Assembly: GCF_900169565.1 (NCBI RefSeq)
Contig: NZ_LT828648.1
Location: 2,702,501 to 2,766,500, forward strand
DNA from: Nitrospira japonica
GTDB taxonomy: Bacteria; Nitrospirota; Nitrospiria; Nitrospirales; Nitrospiraceae
DNA length: 64,000 nt
Direction: 5' to 3'
Shown: one piece after another, positions 5,257-11,019 of the stretch
Position numbering within the stretch: the stretch's first letter is position 1
Layout: every line of letters starts with the position of its first letter
Notes under the pieces: generated by a model
The model's database searches: none
Seen by the model: the letters and a program-made list of their open reading frames with translations, nothing else
What the model was told of the DNA's origin: nothing
Translations under genes and position numbers: made by a program

Positions 5257-6051
5257 ATGAATCATCGTCGGTGCGGGATATTCGTAACCAGACTGACGAC
5301 CCTCGCGCTCTTTCTGATCGTGCTTGTCTCTTCCGCTGGCGTGACTCTGGCCGAAGAACTTACGATCGCCGCCGCGTCGGACCTGAGTTTTGCGTTCAAA
5401 GAGCTTGCGGGAGAATTTGAGAAGAGCTCGGGGCATCATGTCAAACTATCGTTGGGATCGTCCGGGAACTTCTATTCGCAGATTCAGAACGGTGCTCCAT
5501 TTGATCTCTATTTTTCGGCCGACATCGGCTATCCTCGGAAACTGGAAGAGGCGGGTCTGACGGTACCCGGTTCTCTTTATCGATACGCAATCGGGCGAAT
5601 CGTCGTGTGGGCGGGGCATGGATCGCGTCTCGATATGACGAAGGGGATGGAAGTACTGCGCGAGTCAAGCATCAAGAAGATTGCCATCGCCAATCCCAAA
5701 CATGCCCCCTATGGACGGGCCGCCGTGTCCTCCATGGAGCACTTTAACCTCTACCAGCAGGTCAAGGATCGGCTGGTTCTGGGAGAAAACATCTCCCAGG
5801 CCGCCCAATTCGTCGAGTCGGGTGCCTGTGAGGTTGGAATCATCGCCCTTTCACTGGCTCTGGCGCCGACGATGAAAGCCAAGGGTGCATATTGGGAGGT
5901 GCCGGCCGAGACCCATCCCGCGCTGGAACAGGGCGCGGTCATTCTGAAGTCGTCCCAACGCCGGGAAGCGGCGCAGGAATTTCTCGAGTTCATAAAAGGT
6001 CAGACAGGACAGGAGATCATGAAACGCTATGGTTTCACCATTCCGGCATAA
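5257..6051 (+). CDS. modA: Molybdate ABC transporter, binding protein ModA
   Basis: A 264-residue periplasmic binding protein with a clear signal peptide and the canonical ModA start of the mature chain, ELTIAAASDLSFAFKELAGE. Later conserved parts are FDLYFSADIGYPRKLEEAG, VKDRLVLGENISQAAQFVESG and VGIIALSLALAP. It captures molybdate or tungstate in the periplasm and delivers it to ModB and ModC, encoded just downstream. The start has an AGGAGG site. Its last 23 bases overlap the next gene. Oxyanion selectivity (Mo versus W) cannot be read from the sequence. Confidence 0.9.
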   Translation: MNHRRCGIFVTRLTTLALFLIVLVSSAGVTLAEELTIAAASDLSFAFKELAGEFEKSSGHHVKLSLGSSGNFYSQIQNGAPFDLYFSADIGYPRKLEEAGLTVPGSLYRYAIGRIVVWAGHGSRLDMTKGMEVLRESSIKKIAIANPKHAPYGRAAVSSMEHFNLYQQVKDRLVLGENISQAAQFVESGACEVGIIALSLALAPTMKAKGAYWEVPAETHPALEQGAVILKSSQRREAAQEFLEFIKGQTGQEIMKRYGFTIPA

Positions 6052-6364
6052 CCGACGATTCATTGGGTTATTAGCCGTGACGCTTATGCTTCTTACGTGC
6101 GCGGCCTGTTCCGACGCCGTGCAACTCGTGGGAGAAACTGAGACGGGGGGCGTCGTCACCTATTTATATAAGGAGGACCGGGGGGGGCCGATGGGGTCAC
6201 CGCATCGGAAGGAGGCATTGGCAGTCATCGAAAAGAAATGCCCATCCGGTTATATGGTCGTGCGGGATGGAGAAGTGAGAGGCTATTCCGGGATGTCGAG
6301 CACGGATGGGCATGAAGGTGAGGTGACGGGCCAGCGATGGGGCATTCGATTTCGATGTAAATAG
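6029..6364 (+). CDS. Small lipoprotein of unknown function
   Basis: The 111-residue product has a hydrophobic signal segment (FIGLLAVTLMLLT) and a lipobox-like CAAC with the lipid cysteine near residue 27, then a short soluble domain that includes EALAVIEKKCPSGYMVVRDG. The pattern of a lysine-rich helix followed by CPSG(Y) is seen in small bacterial envelope lipoproteins of unknown role. It overlaps the end of modA, so translation is probably coupled. An AGGAG lies about 14 bases upstream. It is likely part of the molybdate operon by position only. Confidence 0.6.
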   Translation: MVSPFRHNRRFIGLLAVTLMLLTCAACSDAVQLVGETETGGVVTYLYKEDRGGPMGSPHRKEALAVIEKKCPSGYMVVRDGEVRGYSGMSSTDGHEGEVTGQRWGIRFRCK

Positions 6365-6405
6365 CCACGATAGGTACCACGTCATCACTAAATGGGGGAT
6401 TCACC

Positions 6406-6609
6406 ATGAAACTCAGCGCGCGGAATCAATTTCAAGGGACTGTGGTTCGGATCACGGACGGACAGGCCATGGCAGAAGTCGTCGTCAAGGTCGGCCAACT
6501 TGAATTCGTTGCGGCCATCACCGAAGGCTCGGTCAAGAGCATGGGGCTTAAGGTCAACGATACCGTAACGGTGGCCGTGAAGGCCACGGAAGTCATGATT
6601 GGTAAGTAG
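6406..6609 (+). CDS. mop: Molbindin (Mop, single TOBE domain)
   Basis: A 67-residue protein made of one TOBE/Mop domain: MKLSARNQFQGTVVRITDGQ, then FVAAITEGSVKSMGLKVNDT and a final VAVKATEVMIGK. Mop proteins assemble into hexamers that bind molybdate or tungstate in the cytoplasm as a buffer or store. It lies between modA and modB in the same direction, which supports this. The length is right for a single-domain molbindin. Confidence 0.92.
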   Translation: MKLSARNQFQGTVVRITDGQAMAEVVVKVGQLEFVAAITEGSVKSMGLKVNDTVTVAVKATEVMIGK

Positions 6610-6681
6610 AATTCGACGGTTCTTTCCGCGGCGTATCGCGGGGAGAACGCCTCGGACGCCGACGAAGGGTAGGGCGGGATC

Positions 6682-7356
6682 GTGAATTGGACGGCAATTT
6701 GGGTTACTTTCAAGCTGGCGTCCCTGACGTCTCTCGCCCTATTGGTTCTCGGACTGCCCATCGCCTACTGGCTGGCCTATTCGAGACGACGATGGAAATT
6801 TCTCGTCGAATCGGTCGTGGCCCTTCCGCTGGTGCTCCCCCCCACTGTATTGGGATTTTATATCCTGGTGGCCATCGGTCCGCACAGTCCCGTCGGGCGG
6901 TTGTACACCGACATCGTCGGAGAACCATTGCCGTTCAGTTTTCAAGGGCTCCTGCTGGCGTCGATCCTTTACAGCCTGCCGTTTGCCGTCCAGCCCTTTG
7001 CGTCGGCGTTCGGTCAAGTCGACCGCAAGTTGATCGAGGCGTCGTGGACGTTGGGCTTGTCTCGATTCAAGACCTTCTTCAAGCTGATCGTGCCCCTCTC
7101 CTTGGCGGGGCTCGTGACGGGAGTCGTATTGAGTTTCGCTCATACGCTGGGTGAATTCGGCGTCGTGCTCATGGTGGGCGGAAACATCGAAGGCGTGACG
7201 CGCACCATTTCCATCGACATCTACGATGAGGTGCAGGCTCTGAACTATGCTCAGGCTTCAAAGACGGCTGCGTTCCTGCTGGTCATTTCATATCTTGTAT
7301 TGCTCCTCGTCTATGCCGTCAATCGGAACATGTGGACTGCATGGCCGCGGAAATAG
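6682..7356 (+). CDS. modB: Molybdate ABC transporter, permease ModB
   Basis: The 224-residue inner-membrane permease shows about five hydrophobic segments and the ABC-permease coupling loop (EASWTLGLSRFKTFFKLIVP), followed by the ModB-typical HTLGEFGVVLMVGGNIEG. It forms the channel for molybdate and pairs with ModC. The start is GTG, with GGGTAGGG just upstream. Its 3' end overlaps modC by 16 bases, indicating translational coupling. Confidence 0.92.
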   Translation: MNWTAIWVTFKLASLTSLALLVLGLPIAYWLAYSRRRWKFLVESVVALPLVLPPTVLGFYILVAIGPHSPVGRLYTDIVGEPLPFSFQGLLLASILYSLPFAVQPFASAFGQVDRKLIEASWTLGLSRFKTFFKLIVPLSLAGLVTGVVLSFAHTLGEFGVVLMVGGNIEGVTRTISIDIYDEVQALNYAQASKTAAFLLVISYLVLLLVYAVNRNMWTAWPRK

Positions 7357-8438
7357 CCATCGATATCCATAAGACCTTTCCTGGACGCGCGACGATCCGC
7401 GCCCGTATTCGGTATCCGGTTGAGGCTTCGACGGTCTTGATTCTCTTCGGTCCGTCCGGATCCGGAAAGACTACGGTCCTCCGGTCGGTCGCGGGGCTTG
7501 AATGTCCGGAGCAGGGGACGATCCGCTTTATCTCGCGGACCTGGCTGGATACGGCGGCCGGCGTCAACATTTCGCCGCAAGATCGCCGCATCGGATATAT
7601 GGCTCAAGAATACGCGCTGTTTCCCACCTATACGGTTGCGGGCAATATCGCCTATGGCTTAGGCCATCTCAGTGTCTCGGATCGAAAGCGGCGGGTGAGC
7701 GAAGTCTTGGAACTCTTTCAATTGGGTGGCCTGGAATCGGTCAAGCCTCGGGAGCTTTCCGGCGGGCAGCAGCAGCGGGTGGCTCTTGCGCGAGCGGTCG
7801 CGCCGAGACCCCAGTTGTTGCTGCTCGACGAGCCTCTCTCGGCGCTGGATGCGCCGACCAGGATTCGTCTTCGCGGGGAGCTCAGAAGCCTTCTGAAGCA
7901 ACTGGCGCTGCCGTCGATCATTGTGACGCATGACCGCGAGGAAGCATTGGCGTTGGGTGATGTGATGGCGGCGATGAGCGACGGGGCGGTCCTCCAAGTC
8001 GGTACGCCGCAGGATGTCTTCAGCAGGCCGGCGAATGCGGAGGTTGCCAAGATCGTCGGCGTGGAGACCGTGGTGCAGGGGCGCGTTCTTCAAGCTGCCG
8101 ACAGCCTCGTCACGATTGAAGTGGGAGAACAGACGCTCACGGCCTTGGATGGACCCGAACTCGGCTCCGCAGTCTTCGTGTGTATCCGTGCGGAGGATGT
8201 GATGCTTGAGAAGATCGGCACCGCGCCGACGAGCGCGCGCAATCATGTGAAAGGAATTGTCCGCGACATTGCATCTGCGGGACCATTGGTCAAGGTGAGT
8301 CTGGATTGCGGATTTCCTCTGGGAGTATTGGTTACGAGATCCGCTTTGGAAGAGTTGGGGCTTGAGCCGGGCTCGCCCGTACGGGCGGCGATCAAAGCCG
8401 GATCGGTACATGTCGTGCCCCGTCAGGAGGGAAACTGA
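7341..8438 (+). CDS. modC: Molybdate ABC transporter, ATPase ModC
   Basis: A 365-residue ATPase. Visible motifs are Walker A GPSGSGKTT, the signature LSGGQQQRVALARA, Walker B LLLLDEPLSALD and the switch histidine in VTHDREEALAL. A TOBE-type domain follows from about residue 230 (VVQGRVLQAADSLVTIEVGE), as in ModC. It energises molybdate import through ModB. An in-frame GTG nine bases upstream is an alternative start; both lie within the end of modB. The gene ends the cluster, with a strong stem-loop across its stop codon. Confidence 0.92.
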   Translation: MAAEIAIDIHKTFPGRATIRARIRYPVEASTVLILFGPSGSGKTTVLRSVAGLECPEQGTIRFISRTWLDTAAGVNISPQDRRIGYMAQEYALFPTYTVAGNIAYGLGHLSVSDRKRRVSEVLELFQLGGLESVKPRELSGGQQQRVALARAVAPRPQLLLLDEPLSALDAPTRIRLRGELRSLLKQLALPSIIVTHDREEALALGDVMAAMSDGAVLQVGTPQDVFSRPANAEVAKIVGVETVVQGRVLQAADSLVTIEVGEQTLTALDGPELGSAVFVCIRAEDVMLEKIGTAPTSARNHVKGIVRDIASAGPLVKVSLDCGFPLGVLVTRSALEELGLEPGSPVRAAIKAGSVHVVPRQEGN

Positions 8439-8443: not shown

Positions 8444-8553
8444 TCAATGAGTCCCTATTCGCAGAAATGCATCGACTTCCTCCTGCCGCTGACCGCATAA
8501 AAGCCGGTAGTCTTACCAGCTGAAAAATTCAAGGTTCGCCTCTCCCCAGCTTC

Positions 8554-8791
8554 TGTGGATAACCCTGTGCGTAACGATGGAATCCAAGAAAGAAGGCGTG
8601 CATTCGGCTGTACCGGGCACCTGTTTGCCTATTTTTTGGGCATTGGGTTGTAGGGGTGACAACCCACCATATCTTGTGGGTATTCCTGTAAAACGCGGAT
8701 AAATGGTTATGCGCTGATTACGAGCGGTGTTTTCACGCAATGCTTGCGTATCGGCTTGGCAGGCGCAGAGTTTCACCGAAAGTTATTCACA
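8554..8791. other. Gene-free stretch with DnaA-box-like sites
   Basis: About 450 bases between modC and the LexA-type gene hold no convincing gene. Two perfect DnaA-box matches occur: TGTGGATAA at 8554-8562 (minus strand TTATCCACA) and TTATTCACA at 8783-8791. Weaker matches lie between them, at 8566-8574 (TGTGCGTAA) and near 8695-8702. A 6-bp hairpin (GCCTCT/AGAGGC) directly follows the second box. The stretch could be a DnaA-binding or titration locus. An origin is possible but not supported by neighbouring replication genes. Confidence 0.4.
8645..8681 (+). promoter_or_regulatory. Overlapping alternative stem-loops
   Basis: GGGTTGT (8645-8651) can pair with ACAACCC (8659-8665), or ACCCAC (8662-8667) can pair with GTGGGT (8676-8681). 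The two stems share the bases ACCC and exclude each other, as in attenuators. No leader peptide or known riboswitch was recognised. Confidence 0.3.
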
Positions 8792-8849
8792 GAGCCTCTG
8801 CGAAAGAGGCATTCCGTCTCCATTAATATAAGAACGGTTGAAATTGGGC

Positions 8850-8888
8850 TTGACAGGCGTTGTCCCAGTATGTAACCATCGGTTACAT
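8850..8888 (+). promoter_or_regulatory. Promoter and palindromic operator of the LexA-type repressor
   Basis: A perfect TTGACA at 8850-8855 is followed by the perfect palindrome ATGTAACCATCGGTTACAT at 8870-8888, which has 8-bp arms around a 3-bp centre and ends one base before the repressor ATG. A -10 element at normal spacing would fall inside the palindrome, so binding should block transcription. This points to autorepression. No Shine-Dalgarno site precedes the ATG, consistent with a leaderless mRNA. Confidence 0.6.
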
Positions 8889-8889
8889 C

Positions 8890-9435
8890 ATGAAACCATC
8901 CGAGCTGAAACACATGCGGGAGCAGCTGGGACTTACGCAGCAGCAACTGGCTGATGCGCTGCAGACGACACGAGTTTCGGTCGCACGGTATGAGGCAGGT
9001 ATGCGCCGTATTCCCGGGATGGTGAAGGTGGCAATCGAGCGACTGAACCGCTCCTCGGAAATTCCCATGGCCGGGATGGTCGCCGCAGGAGCACCGATCG
9101 AACCGGTGCCTCAAGCCGAGTTGATCGAAGTCCCGTTGAGCATGTTGCGGGGAGGCGATACCTTCGCGTTGCGCGTCAAGGGAGAATCGATGAAGGACGA
9201 CGGTATTCTTCCCGGTGACATCGTTGTCGTGCACAAACAGGAAACGGCGAAAAACGGACAGACTGTGGTGGCGTTGGTCAATCATGAGGCCACAATCAAA
9301 ACGTACTACAAAAAAGACACTCACATCGAATTGCATCCGGCCAATAGCGCCATGGAGCCGATCTTTGTTCAACCGTCCGATGCGTTTCATATTGAAGGCA
9401 TCGTGATCGGCGTCATTCGACATTGTTCAGCATAG
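8890..9435 (+). CDS. LexA/CI-type self-cleaving repressor with XRE DNA-binding domain
   Basis: The 181-residue protein has an N-terminal XRE helix-turn-helix (about residues 5-52, GLTQQQLADALQTTRVSVAR) and a C-terminal S24 peptidase domain. The cleavage site is intact (VAAGAP, between Ala66 and Gly67). The dyad is Ser100 in RVKGESM and Lys137 in EATIKTYY. Such proteins repress until activated RecA provokes self-cleavage. The XRE head distinguishes it from classical LexA, which has a winged helix, so it resembles phage CI or HdiR-type regulators. It is the first gene of a four-gene unit and its start abuts a palindrome, so it probably represses its own operon. An upstream in-frame TTG is less likely because it lies between promoter and operator. 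Confidence 0.85.
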   Translation: MKPSELKHMREQLGLTQQQLADALQTTRVSVARYEAGMRRIPGMVKVAIERLNRSSEIPMAGMVAAGAPIEPVPQAELIEVPLSMLRGGDTFALRVKGESMKDDGILPGDIVVVHKQETAKNGQTVVALVNHEATIKTYYKKDTHIELHPANSAMEPIFVQPSDAFHIEGIVIGVIRHCSA

Positions 9436-9458
9436 AAGCAGAAGCAAGGAGGACTGTG

Positions 9459-9707
9459 ATGATGGAGCGAACCATGAGAGCCAACGATCGACTGATGGAT
9501 CTGGAGCGAACGGTGAGCGTACTCAACGGGCGTCTTCTGAATTTGCAATGGGAGTTGCAGCGGGCAAAAGCCTATTCCTTGCCGGAGCGCATTTGGCGAA
9601 ATATCGTCAACGGTCGTCAGGGAAACAGGTTCATGTCGACGGTCTGCAGCAGACATATACGTCCGAATATGAAAGTGAGGGACTATGCCGGTACAACCGG
9701 ACACTGA
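9459..9707 (+). CDS. Small helical protein of unknown function in the LexA-type operon
   Basis: An 82-residue protein begins at ATG after a strong AAGGAGGA site, 23 bases after the repressor stop. Its first half is a predicted amphipathic helix or short coiled coil (DRLMDLERTVSVLNGRLLNL), rich in arginine and leucine; the second half is basic. No family was recognised. Its 3' end overlaps the next small gene by 23 bases, so the genes are translationally coupled. It could be a DNA- or partner-binding accessory, which is only a guess. Confidence 0.6.
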   Translation: MMERTMRANDRLMDLERTVSVLNGRLLNLQWELQRAKAYSLPERIWRNIVNGRQGNRFMSTVCSRHIRPNMKVRDYAGTTGH

Positions 9708-9864
9708 CACGCAGGCAGTCGGACGCTGTGCCGACTGCGGTAAGTGGAACACTCATTTGGTCGGATATGTGGATACGCTCGCGCCAATCAGACTGGAGCT
9801 GTGTGATCTCTGTTGGCACGCCCGCCAGCATCGACAAAATTTTTCCGGAGGATGCTGCGGGTAA
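9685..9864 (+). CDS. 59-residue CxxC zinc-ribbon-like protein
   Basis: A short frame starts at ATG preceded by GTGAGGG and reads MPVQPDTDTQ, then GRCADCGKW and, after about 20 residues, LCDLCWHARQH, ending GGCCG. Two CxxC pairs spaced by about 21 residues are the usual pattern of a small zinc ribbon; the terminal Cys-Cys is unusual. It overlaps the preceding gene and ends 14 bases before the RecA-like gene, so the tight spacing supports a real gene. It may bind DNA or a partner through zinc, but no family was recognised. Confidence 0.6.
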   Translation: MPVQPDTDTQAVGRCADCGKWNTHLVGYVDTLAPIRLELCDLCWHARQHRQNFSGGCCG

Positions 9865-9878
9865 CGGAGAGGTGGAAC

Positions 9879-10601
9879 ATGCGTGCGACCGTTGAATCAA
9901 CGACATTGCCACTTCTCGATCGTCCGGGCGACGAGTACGCGGCAGAGACGAAACACGGCGCATCGGGAGACTGGTCCCTTGCGTTACGCTATGCCCAGGT
10001 GCCGTTTTATCCCGACGACAAGCTGCTCCTTCTCCATGGGCATGCCCTCGTGTTTCGATTGGGCCTCCATATCGCGACGGAGCGGGTCTTGGGCGGAGAG
10101 CCGGTTCTTTATGTCGATGGAGCCAATACGTTCGATCCGTTTGCGGTGGGTCGATTGGCCCGTGCCAGACGGCGCCAACCCCGTCAGGTTCTGGCCGGGA
10201 TTCATGTGGCCAGGGCATTCAGTTCCCATCAGATAGAACGATTGATATCGGACTGTCTTGGCGCTGCGCTCGATCGATATCACTCCCGTATTGCCATGCT
10301 GGCCGGATTGTTTGAGACCTTTTATGATCAGGCGGTTTCCGATCATAGCGCCGAGAAGTTGTTCGGTCGCATGATGAACGCGATCATTCGATTGACACGG
10401 CAAGGCTATACGATCGTCTGTCTCTGTCCTTCCGTTCCCATACTTACACAGGCGGGCCGGCAGCGGTTCGATCAACTCCGCGTTCACGCCGACCGTGTTC
10501 TTCGCGTGCAGGAAGGGCAAGGTGTCGTACGGCTTCACGACGATGGGTTGAACGACGGCCGATCATGGGAGATTCCCCGTACTCTGCTTACCGAACGATG
10601 A
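9879..10601 (+). CDS. RecA/Rad51-like protein lacking the Walker A loop
   Basis: The 240-residue protein starts at ATG after GGAGAGG. The stretch VLYVDGANTFDPFAVGRLAR (about residues 77-94) and then VARAFSSHQIERL (110-122) strongly resemble the Rad51/RadA core after the P-loop, including the strand-helix with a TFDP motif and the ARAF..HQ segment. A later hydrophobic strand (YTIVCLCPSVP) fits the same fold. Where a GxxxxGKT loop should precede this, the sequence is LHGHALVFRLG, with no lysine, so ATP binding of the usual kind is doubtful. It closes the operon headed by the self-cleaving repressor, so a damage-inducible repair or RecA-modulating role (like the non-catalytic ImuA/SulA group) is likely but unproven. 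Confidence 0.6.
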   Translation: MRATVESTTLPLLDRPGDEYAAETKHGASGDWSLALRYAQVPFYPDDKLLLLHGHALVFRLGLHIATERVLGGEPVLYVDGANTFDPFAVGRLARARRRQPRQVLAGIHVARAFSSHQIERLISDCLGAALDRYHSRIAMLAGLFETFYDQAVSDHSAEKLFGRMMNAIIRLTRQGYTIVCLCPSVPILTQAGRQRFDQLRVHADRVLRVQEGQGVVRLHDDGLNDGRSWEIPRTLLTER

Positions 10602-11019
10602 AAGGATCTTCTTTCTCACTTGCCCTGATTCCGATCGACAGGATTTCAGTTACCTCGGTGGGAATCATCAGTTAAATGAGCGAATTCGCACAAGACATAA
10701 AGATTCTTGGAAGGTTTCGGTAAGAATGGAGGTGTAGGAGTGACTGTTTTACCCTTCACACTTGAATGTTTGAGGGTACTCTCGATTTATCATTAATGAT
10801 CGCTAGTGTTTTCCCCGGTTGTGCCTCCGTCAGCTCTTCCGTAACCTGCAGTCAAACGAGAACACATCCTGGAAAGTCGACTCAGGTTCAAGCCAGTCGC
10901 ACGGTAAATTCACTGAGCTGTTTCTTGCATGTCTGGTCAACAGACGGATCAATTCGTCTTGGAAGCAATTCAGAAACATAGGAAACCAGCCCGACGTACC
11001 GTGGAGAACTTGTAAGAAT
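10602..11019. other. AT-rich gene-free stretch before the ATP-grasp gene
   Basis: No convincing gene is seen here. The composition is richer in A+T than the flanks. A perfect 12-bp palindrome, ATCATTAATGAT, lies at 10789-10800 and may be part of a promoter or operator. Upstream extensions of the ATP-grasp frame into this stretch show no domain character. Confidence 0.4.

Follow-up and report, generated by a model that had tools for sequence, protein, structure and literature searches.

An inactive RadA without PolB2 in a predicted LexA-type operon of Nitrospira japonica

What does a RecA-like protein devoid of ATPase motifs do at the end of an operon headed by a self-cleaving repressor? This question is raised by four plus-strand open reading frames, coding for P0001 (8890-9435), P0002 (9459-9707), P0003 (9685-9864) and P0004 (9879-10601), in a 64,000-nucleotide stretch (the window) of the complete 4.08-Mb genome of Nitrospira japonica. 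The frames are separated by gaps of 23 nt and 14 nt and share one overlap of 23 nt, in agreement with the initial annotation, which had described four tightly spaced or overlapping genes in one direction. The same annotation had named loss of gene order in related genomes as grounds for abandoning its proposal. The four-gene order was found to be kept in five species of the window genus and also in other genera, indicating that the arrangement is not due to chance.

The first gene product, P0001, has the organization of a non-canonical LexA: an XRE/CI-type helix-turn-helix head (HTH_3, E=4.6e-9) is followed by a LexA-type S24 peptidase (Peptidase_S24, E=3.4e-30). The winged-helix domain PF01726 is absent from P0001 and HTH_3 stands in its place; the domain search did detect PF01726 in the canonical LexA of a relative (G024). 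Residues 45-178 score 135 bits against the lexA equivalog model (cut-off 110.95). The cleavage pair A66-G67 and residues S100 and K137 are invariant in an alignment of 36 homologues, and they align with what we take to be A84-G85, S119 and K156 of E. coli LexA. The intact cleavage site, the Ser/Lys dyad and the XRE head noted earlier were thereby all confirmed. P0001 is the only S24-domain protein of the window genome.

The operon unit includes a promoter and an operator at 8850-8887. The -35 hexamer TTGACA (8850-8855, plus strand), of which TTGAC is invariant among the aligned loci, is followed by the palindrome TGTAACC-ATC-GGTTACA (8871-8887, plus strand), a predicted operator that overlaps the -10 region and ends 2 nt before the ATG. 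The exact sequence occurs in a single copy genome-wide. A palindrome is present at the equivalent position in approximately 30 relatives; in nearly all relatives with the XRE-LexA type of repressor it lies over the -10 region, behind TTGACA and 0-3 nt ahead of the XRE-LexA start codon. Because of this conservation, P0001, a predicted LexA-type self-cleaving repressor, very probably represses the operon that it heads. We regard it as highly likely that the four genes form an autoregulated SOS operon of the LexA type, and the damage-inducible unit predicted previously is still the best reading of such a repressor combined with a conserved promoter palindrome.

The extent of the putative regulon was assessed with an operator weight matrix built from genomes other than the window genome. 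In the latter the own promoter scored 28.5 bits and one further site 25.3 bits, the next candidate reaching 13.5. The second operator (1683292-1683308), with two mismatches relative to the own-promoter site, is located just before an ImuB-like gene; the operon behind it codes for this ImuB-like protein, a DnaE2-like polymerase and a UdgX-family uracil-DNA-binding protein, as judged by Pfam and NCBIfam matches, and by its neighbourhood it is devoid of imuA. Other genomes share this pair of locations, the operator being found before ImuB-DnaE2 in G003, G004, G005, G006, G017, G026 and G029, and in G014, G032 and G040 the pattern occurs once only, at the LexA-P0002-P0003 operon. Judging by sequence, the operator is therefore present both in the promoter of P0001 itself and ahead of translesion synthesis genes, as it would be for LexA. 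The recA gene of the window genome has no operator site, by which a large SOS regulon including recA was ruled out. The predicted regulon probably consists of two operons, the repressor's own and ImuB-DnaE2-UdgX. Repressor paralogues located before ImuB-DnaE2 or PolB2 have altered palindromes, for example TGTGACA-TTA-TGTCACA, and canonical LexA genes of relatives have yet others.

Several minor observations concern these operators. The UdgX gene stands third in the ImuB-DnaE2 operon (L119, 2412-3053), a position that puts it under predicted SOS control. G006, a member of the window genus (99% complete), keeps the operator before ImuB-DnaE2 (L123, G006:C2:725308-725324), and a LexA-type protein was not found in it. 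Two g5 genomes (L156, G029:C18:35132; L157, G043:C3:431725) have a third operator, with TTGAC, directly before an ORF of approximately 120 aa beginning MGREEIALGVYLLQTAGD, which is a possible further SOS gene. At L033 and L034 (G058 and G065, another family of the order) the LexA gene heading iRadA has an E. coli-like promoter palindrome, ACTGTATATAAATACAGT.

The last gene product, P0004, had been described as a RecA/Rad51-like protein without a P-loop, and this proved correct. Sequence searches gave weak Rad51/RadA matches (RadA profile, E=6.7e-8). The AF2 model of P0004 contains a RecA core (pLDDT 79, with residues 1-30 of low confidence), and its top Foldseek matches were all RadA, RAD51 or DMC1; capping complexes of RAD51 paralogues were also among the fold matches. 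The model has the RadA/RAD51 core fold with the N-terminal helical domain missing, as is the case for iRadA. The Walker A stretch reads GHALVFRL, and alignments revealed that neither the Walker B Asp nor the catalytic Glu is retained. Of 81 relatives, 17 have homologues, as do 51 of the 396 genomes in a phylum-wide sample.

The next gene after iRadA in G010, G020, G042, G021 and others codes for an MGRT-start protein of about 95-96 aa, and the one behind it for a family-B polymerase (approximately 750 aa) matching PF00136. The order lexA-iRadA-PPB2-PolB2 is that of the bacterial PolB2 operon (PMC4104785, PMC11791011), the lexA association of which was reported in 2014 (Makarova, PMC4104785). 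Since the neighbourhoods in relatives match this known operon, P0004 is almost certainly iRadA, the inactive RadA known from the PolB2 translesion mutasome. For the same reason the initial view that the gene combination is unlike described systems is not supported. A row of six genes, XRE-LexA, P0002, P0003, iRadA, PPB2 and PolB2, is found in a sister genus (G021) and in the g5 genomes G156, G316, G318 and G321, so that the window operon corresponds to the PolB2 operon minus its last two genes. P0004 was not matched by the ImuA model NF033429. The search with this model returned RecA/RadA only, with no match over the cut-off in the 81 genomes or in the Caulobacter control, and the absence of ImuA is called here from gene neighbourhoods.

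The polymerase itself is missing from the whole genome. No PF00136 family-B polymerase was found in the complete window genome by a search that was positive in 10 relatives and E. coli, and PolB2 was absent from all seven genomes of the window genus searched. Downstream of P0004 in the window no remnant of PPB2 or PolB2 was found and the MGRT-start PPB2 was not matched; an MGRT string in G001 is due to chance. iRadA without adjacent PolB2 occurs in genus g1, in genus g19 (G024, G035 and G046, that is three of the four iRadA-bearing genomes, G042 retaining PolB2) and in one g5 clade (G304, G313, G324, G350 and G248b, by adjacency). Whole-genome absence of PolB2 covers the 81 relatives; g5 genomes outside those 81 were judged by adjacency. 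Well-supported branches of the iRadA gene tree require at least three changes between presence and absence of PolB2, and the most parsimonious solution has five; the number of losses depends on the gene trees, in which several forks are open. On balance we favour descent of the window operon from a PolB2-mutasome operon that lost its polymerase half.

After the loss of PolB2, iRadA has remained intact. Full-length frames are present in at least eight polymerase-less species, with within-genus amino-acid identity to P0004 down to 57%, and dN/dS values of about 0.1-0.25 for polymerase-less iRadA indicate purifying selection. Positions F85, P87, L105 and I108, which presumably form the peptide-binding groove as in RAD51, are unchanged in the aligned polymerase-less members. 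Taken together, the intact frame, the selection and the preserved groove suggest that iRadA probably has a function independent of PolB2.

We propose the following mechanism. Dimers of P0001 on the -10 palindrome would shut down their own operon together with the unlinked ImuB-DnaE2-UdgX operon, as the conserved operators suggest. RecA-triggered self-cleavage is established for LexA; upon damage, RecA on single-stranded DNA would likewise induce P0001, with its intact site and dyad, to self-cleave at A66-G67, and the two operons would then be produced together. iRadA, unable to bind ATP but equipped with a RAD51-type groove, would dock a partner other than PolB2, the candidates being ImuB-DnaE2 and RecA. 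It is in this role of iRadA that the mechanism is least secure. In the window genus the likeliest partner, speculatively, would be the co-regulated ImuB-DnaE2 mutasome, with iRadA replacing ImuA. Such a role is plausible there since ImuB-DnaE2 is co-regulated and imuA is not beside it, and we put it forward tentatively, as possible rather than probable. A stand-in for ImuA would not be a general explanation: many Nitrospira have ImuB-DnaE2 and no iRadA, and no ImuB-type match was seen in genus g19, where iRadA is polymerase-less. None of the 81 genomes has both PolB2 (10 genomes) and ImuB-type genes (approximately 25 genomes), for which the chance is about 2% if kinship is ignored and hence weakly estimated; ImuB was called by match strength, and the neighbourhood was checked in part of the genomes. 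The explanation as a whole, a LexA-type SOS operon from a PolB2-mutasome ancestor in which iRadA serves another partner, appears to us somewhat better than even. A more far-reaching proposal is doubtful: iRadA would be an independent SOS effector that outlived its polymerase and, in the window genus at least, was recruited to supply the ImuA-like subunit lacking from an ImuB-DnaE2-UdgX mutasome controlled by the same non-canonical LexA, and P0002 and P0003 would be a new minimal pair of SOS effectors, the sole predicted LexA targets in some Nitrospira.

The main rival to an ImuA-like role is binding of iRadA to RecA. The ATPase-dead fold would cap or remodel RecA filaments through the RAD51-type groove or a surface of its own, as a damage-induced means of restraining recombination or the SOS signal, with no polymerase needed. 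This would account for the retention of iRadA in genus g19, where ImuB-DnaE2 was not seen; it is also consistent with the groove being preserved without PolB2, with the capping complexes among the fold matches and with the presence of recA. However, nothing ties bacterial RecA to iRadA, and the PolB2-iRadA pairing has been modelled as specific, active RadA not being interchangeable (PMC11791011). We therefore consider action on RecA rather unlikely, and the modulation of RecA suggested in the initial annotation is retained as one of two live readings. Neither partner would be needed if iRadA were a functionless, decaying leftover of the PolB2 operon, carried along because of its place at the end of a LexA/P0002/P0003 operon that is itself useful. 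Decay is indeed observed elsewhere, G294 having PPB2-PolB2 in pieces beside an intact iRadA and G182 a broken iRadA with a partial PolB2, and P0002/P0003 persist without iRadA in many genomes. The full-length frames under purifying selection speak against this, as does the four-gene unit being common to different genera as one unit, and make the leftover explanation improbable.

It could also be argued that P0001 is a CI repressor of the prophage or island type and the operon part of a mobile element rather than of the host SOS response. The CI-like head would fit, as would the tRNA-Met gene situated 1.8 kb downstream of the operon in the window and a unit in another genus (G248a), 82% identical with other flanks, which lies near tRNA-Met and a recombinase-like ORF. 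Against this, the C-terminal domain of P0001 belongs to the LexA equivalog, the operator is also present at ImuB-DnaE2, and the operon, frequently a neighbour of modBC, extends through the greater part of the order; phage genes were not recognised around it. A mobile-element repressor is thus very improbable, and the reading as a LexA-type SOS operon is preferred.

The two middle genes code for small proteins. P0002 is an 82-aa helical protein with a conserved C-terminal FMSxVCNRRxRPNxK and without a known family. P0003, a 59-aa protein with CxxCG, CxxC and a C-terminal GCC, had been called a zinc-ribbon protein; a zinc finger is upheld, all six cysteines being invariant, whereas the model, of low confidence, is treble-clef-like rather than a ribbon. 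Neither protein gave a family match over the cut-off, PDB and Pfam profile searches yielded coiled-coil and zinc-finger noise only, and no publications on them were found in the literature searched. P0002 was ruled out as PPB2, both proteins being present in G021 and G156. The two are predicted to be core SOS effectors accompanying the XRE-LexA type of repressor; that they act at the replication fork or in arresting the cell cycle is a guess. The operator map indicates these two uncharacterised small proteins as the core output of the predicted SOS regulon.

Each element of the operon has a described relative, namely lexA-PolB2 operons, inactive RadA, CI-headed LexA and ImuB-DnaE2. The operon has two features in common with the PolB2 mutasome operon (PMC4104785; Timinskas 2025, PMC11791011): the LexA-type head and iRadA, recognised from its sequence, its fold, the loss of the Walker motifs and its position in relatives. 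It differs by the absence of PPB2 and PolB2 from the window, the XRE/CI head of the repressor and the additional P0002 and P0003. The non-canonical LexA of Bacteroidetes, an SOS regulator, likewise combines a CI-type HTH (PF01381 in P0001) with an autocleaving S24 peptidase (PMC8565304). Its operators are CTAA-N5-TTAG or GGA-N5-TCC, in contrast to TGTAACC-N3-GGTTACA for P0001, the C-terminal part of which scores as the LexA equivalog and the predicted regulon of which comprises one or two operons. As in the LexA-imuA-imuB-dnaE2 cassette, ImuB-DnaE2 would be under LexA-type control and the regulon would include a RecA-fold protein without ATPase motifs; here, however, the ImuB-DnaE2 operon is without imuA, and the RecA-fold protein comes from another operon and descends from RadA rather than SulA/ImuA. 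Descriptions of iRadA to date treat it as a PolB2 mutasome subunit. Haloarchaeal iRadA+PPB2 pairs exist as an additional copy without PolB2 (PMC4104785), and no publication on orphan iRadA in bacteria, nor any study of SOS control in Nitrospira, was found in the literature searched. Repeated loss of PolB2 with iRadA kept provides natural strains for the function of iRadA alone and predicts a second partner, and for the major nitrifier Nitrospira the operator map offers a testable predicted SOS regulon of unusually small size.

Upstream of the promoter lies a conserved non-coding block (8545-8800, no strand assigned; alignment A4) with two inverted DnaA-box-like 9-mers, TGTGGATAA and TTATTCACA. 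Such boxes occur at a similar distance in more than 20 loci, 45 having been found against 0.5 expected, which suggests that the block may be linked to replication control. In alignment A4 it spans approximately 240 bp, with TGTGGATAA and TTATNCACA at a distance of 219-231 bp, and it also contains a TTGCCTA-N6-GGCATTG palindrome. It precedes most LexA-P0002-P0003 operons and is absent at LexA-ImuB or LexA-iRadA-PolB2 operons without P0002/P0003. A structured RNA was ruled out (no Rfam match, no covariation), as was a replication origin, the GC skew keeping its sign there. The four-gene unit together with this block (window 8538-10612) has 82% DNA identity to L193 6528-8608 of G248, which suggests horizontal transfer; G248 has a second, divergent copy, and the recombinase-like ORF near the 82% copy resembles a tyrosine recombinase. 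Directly upstream, at 5257-8438 of the window, there is a molybdate transport cluster (modA, a molybdopterin-binding protein, modB and modC), and the position of modBC beside the operon is kept in many, not all, relatives.
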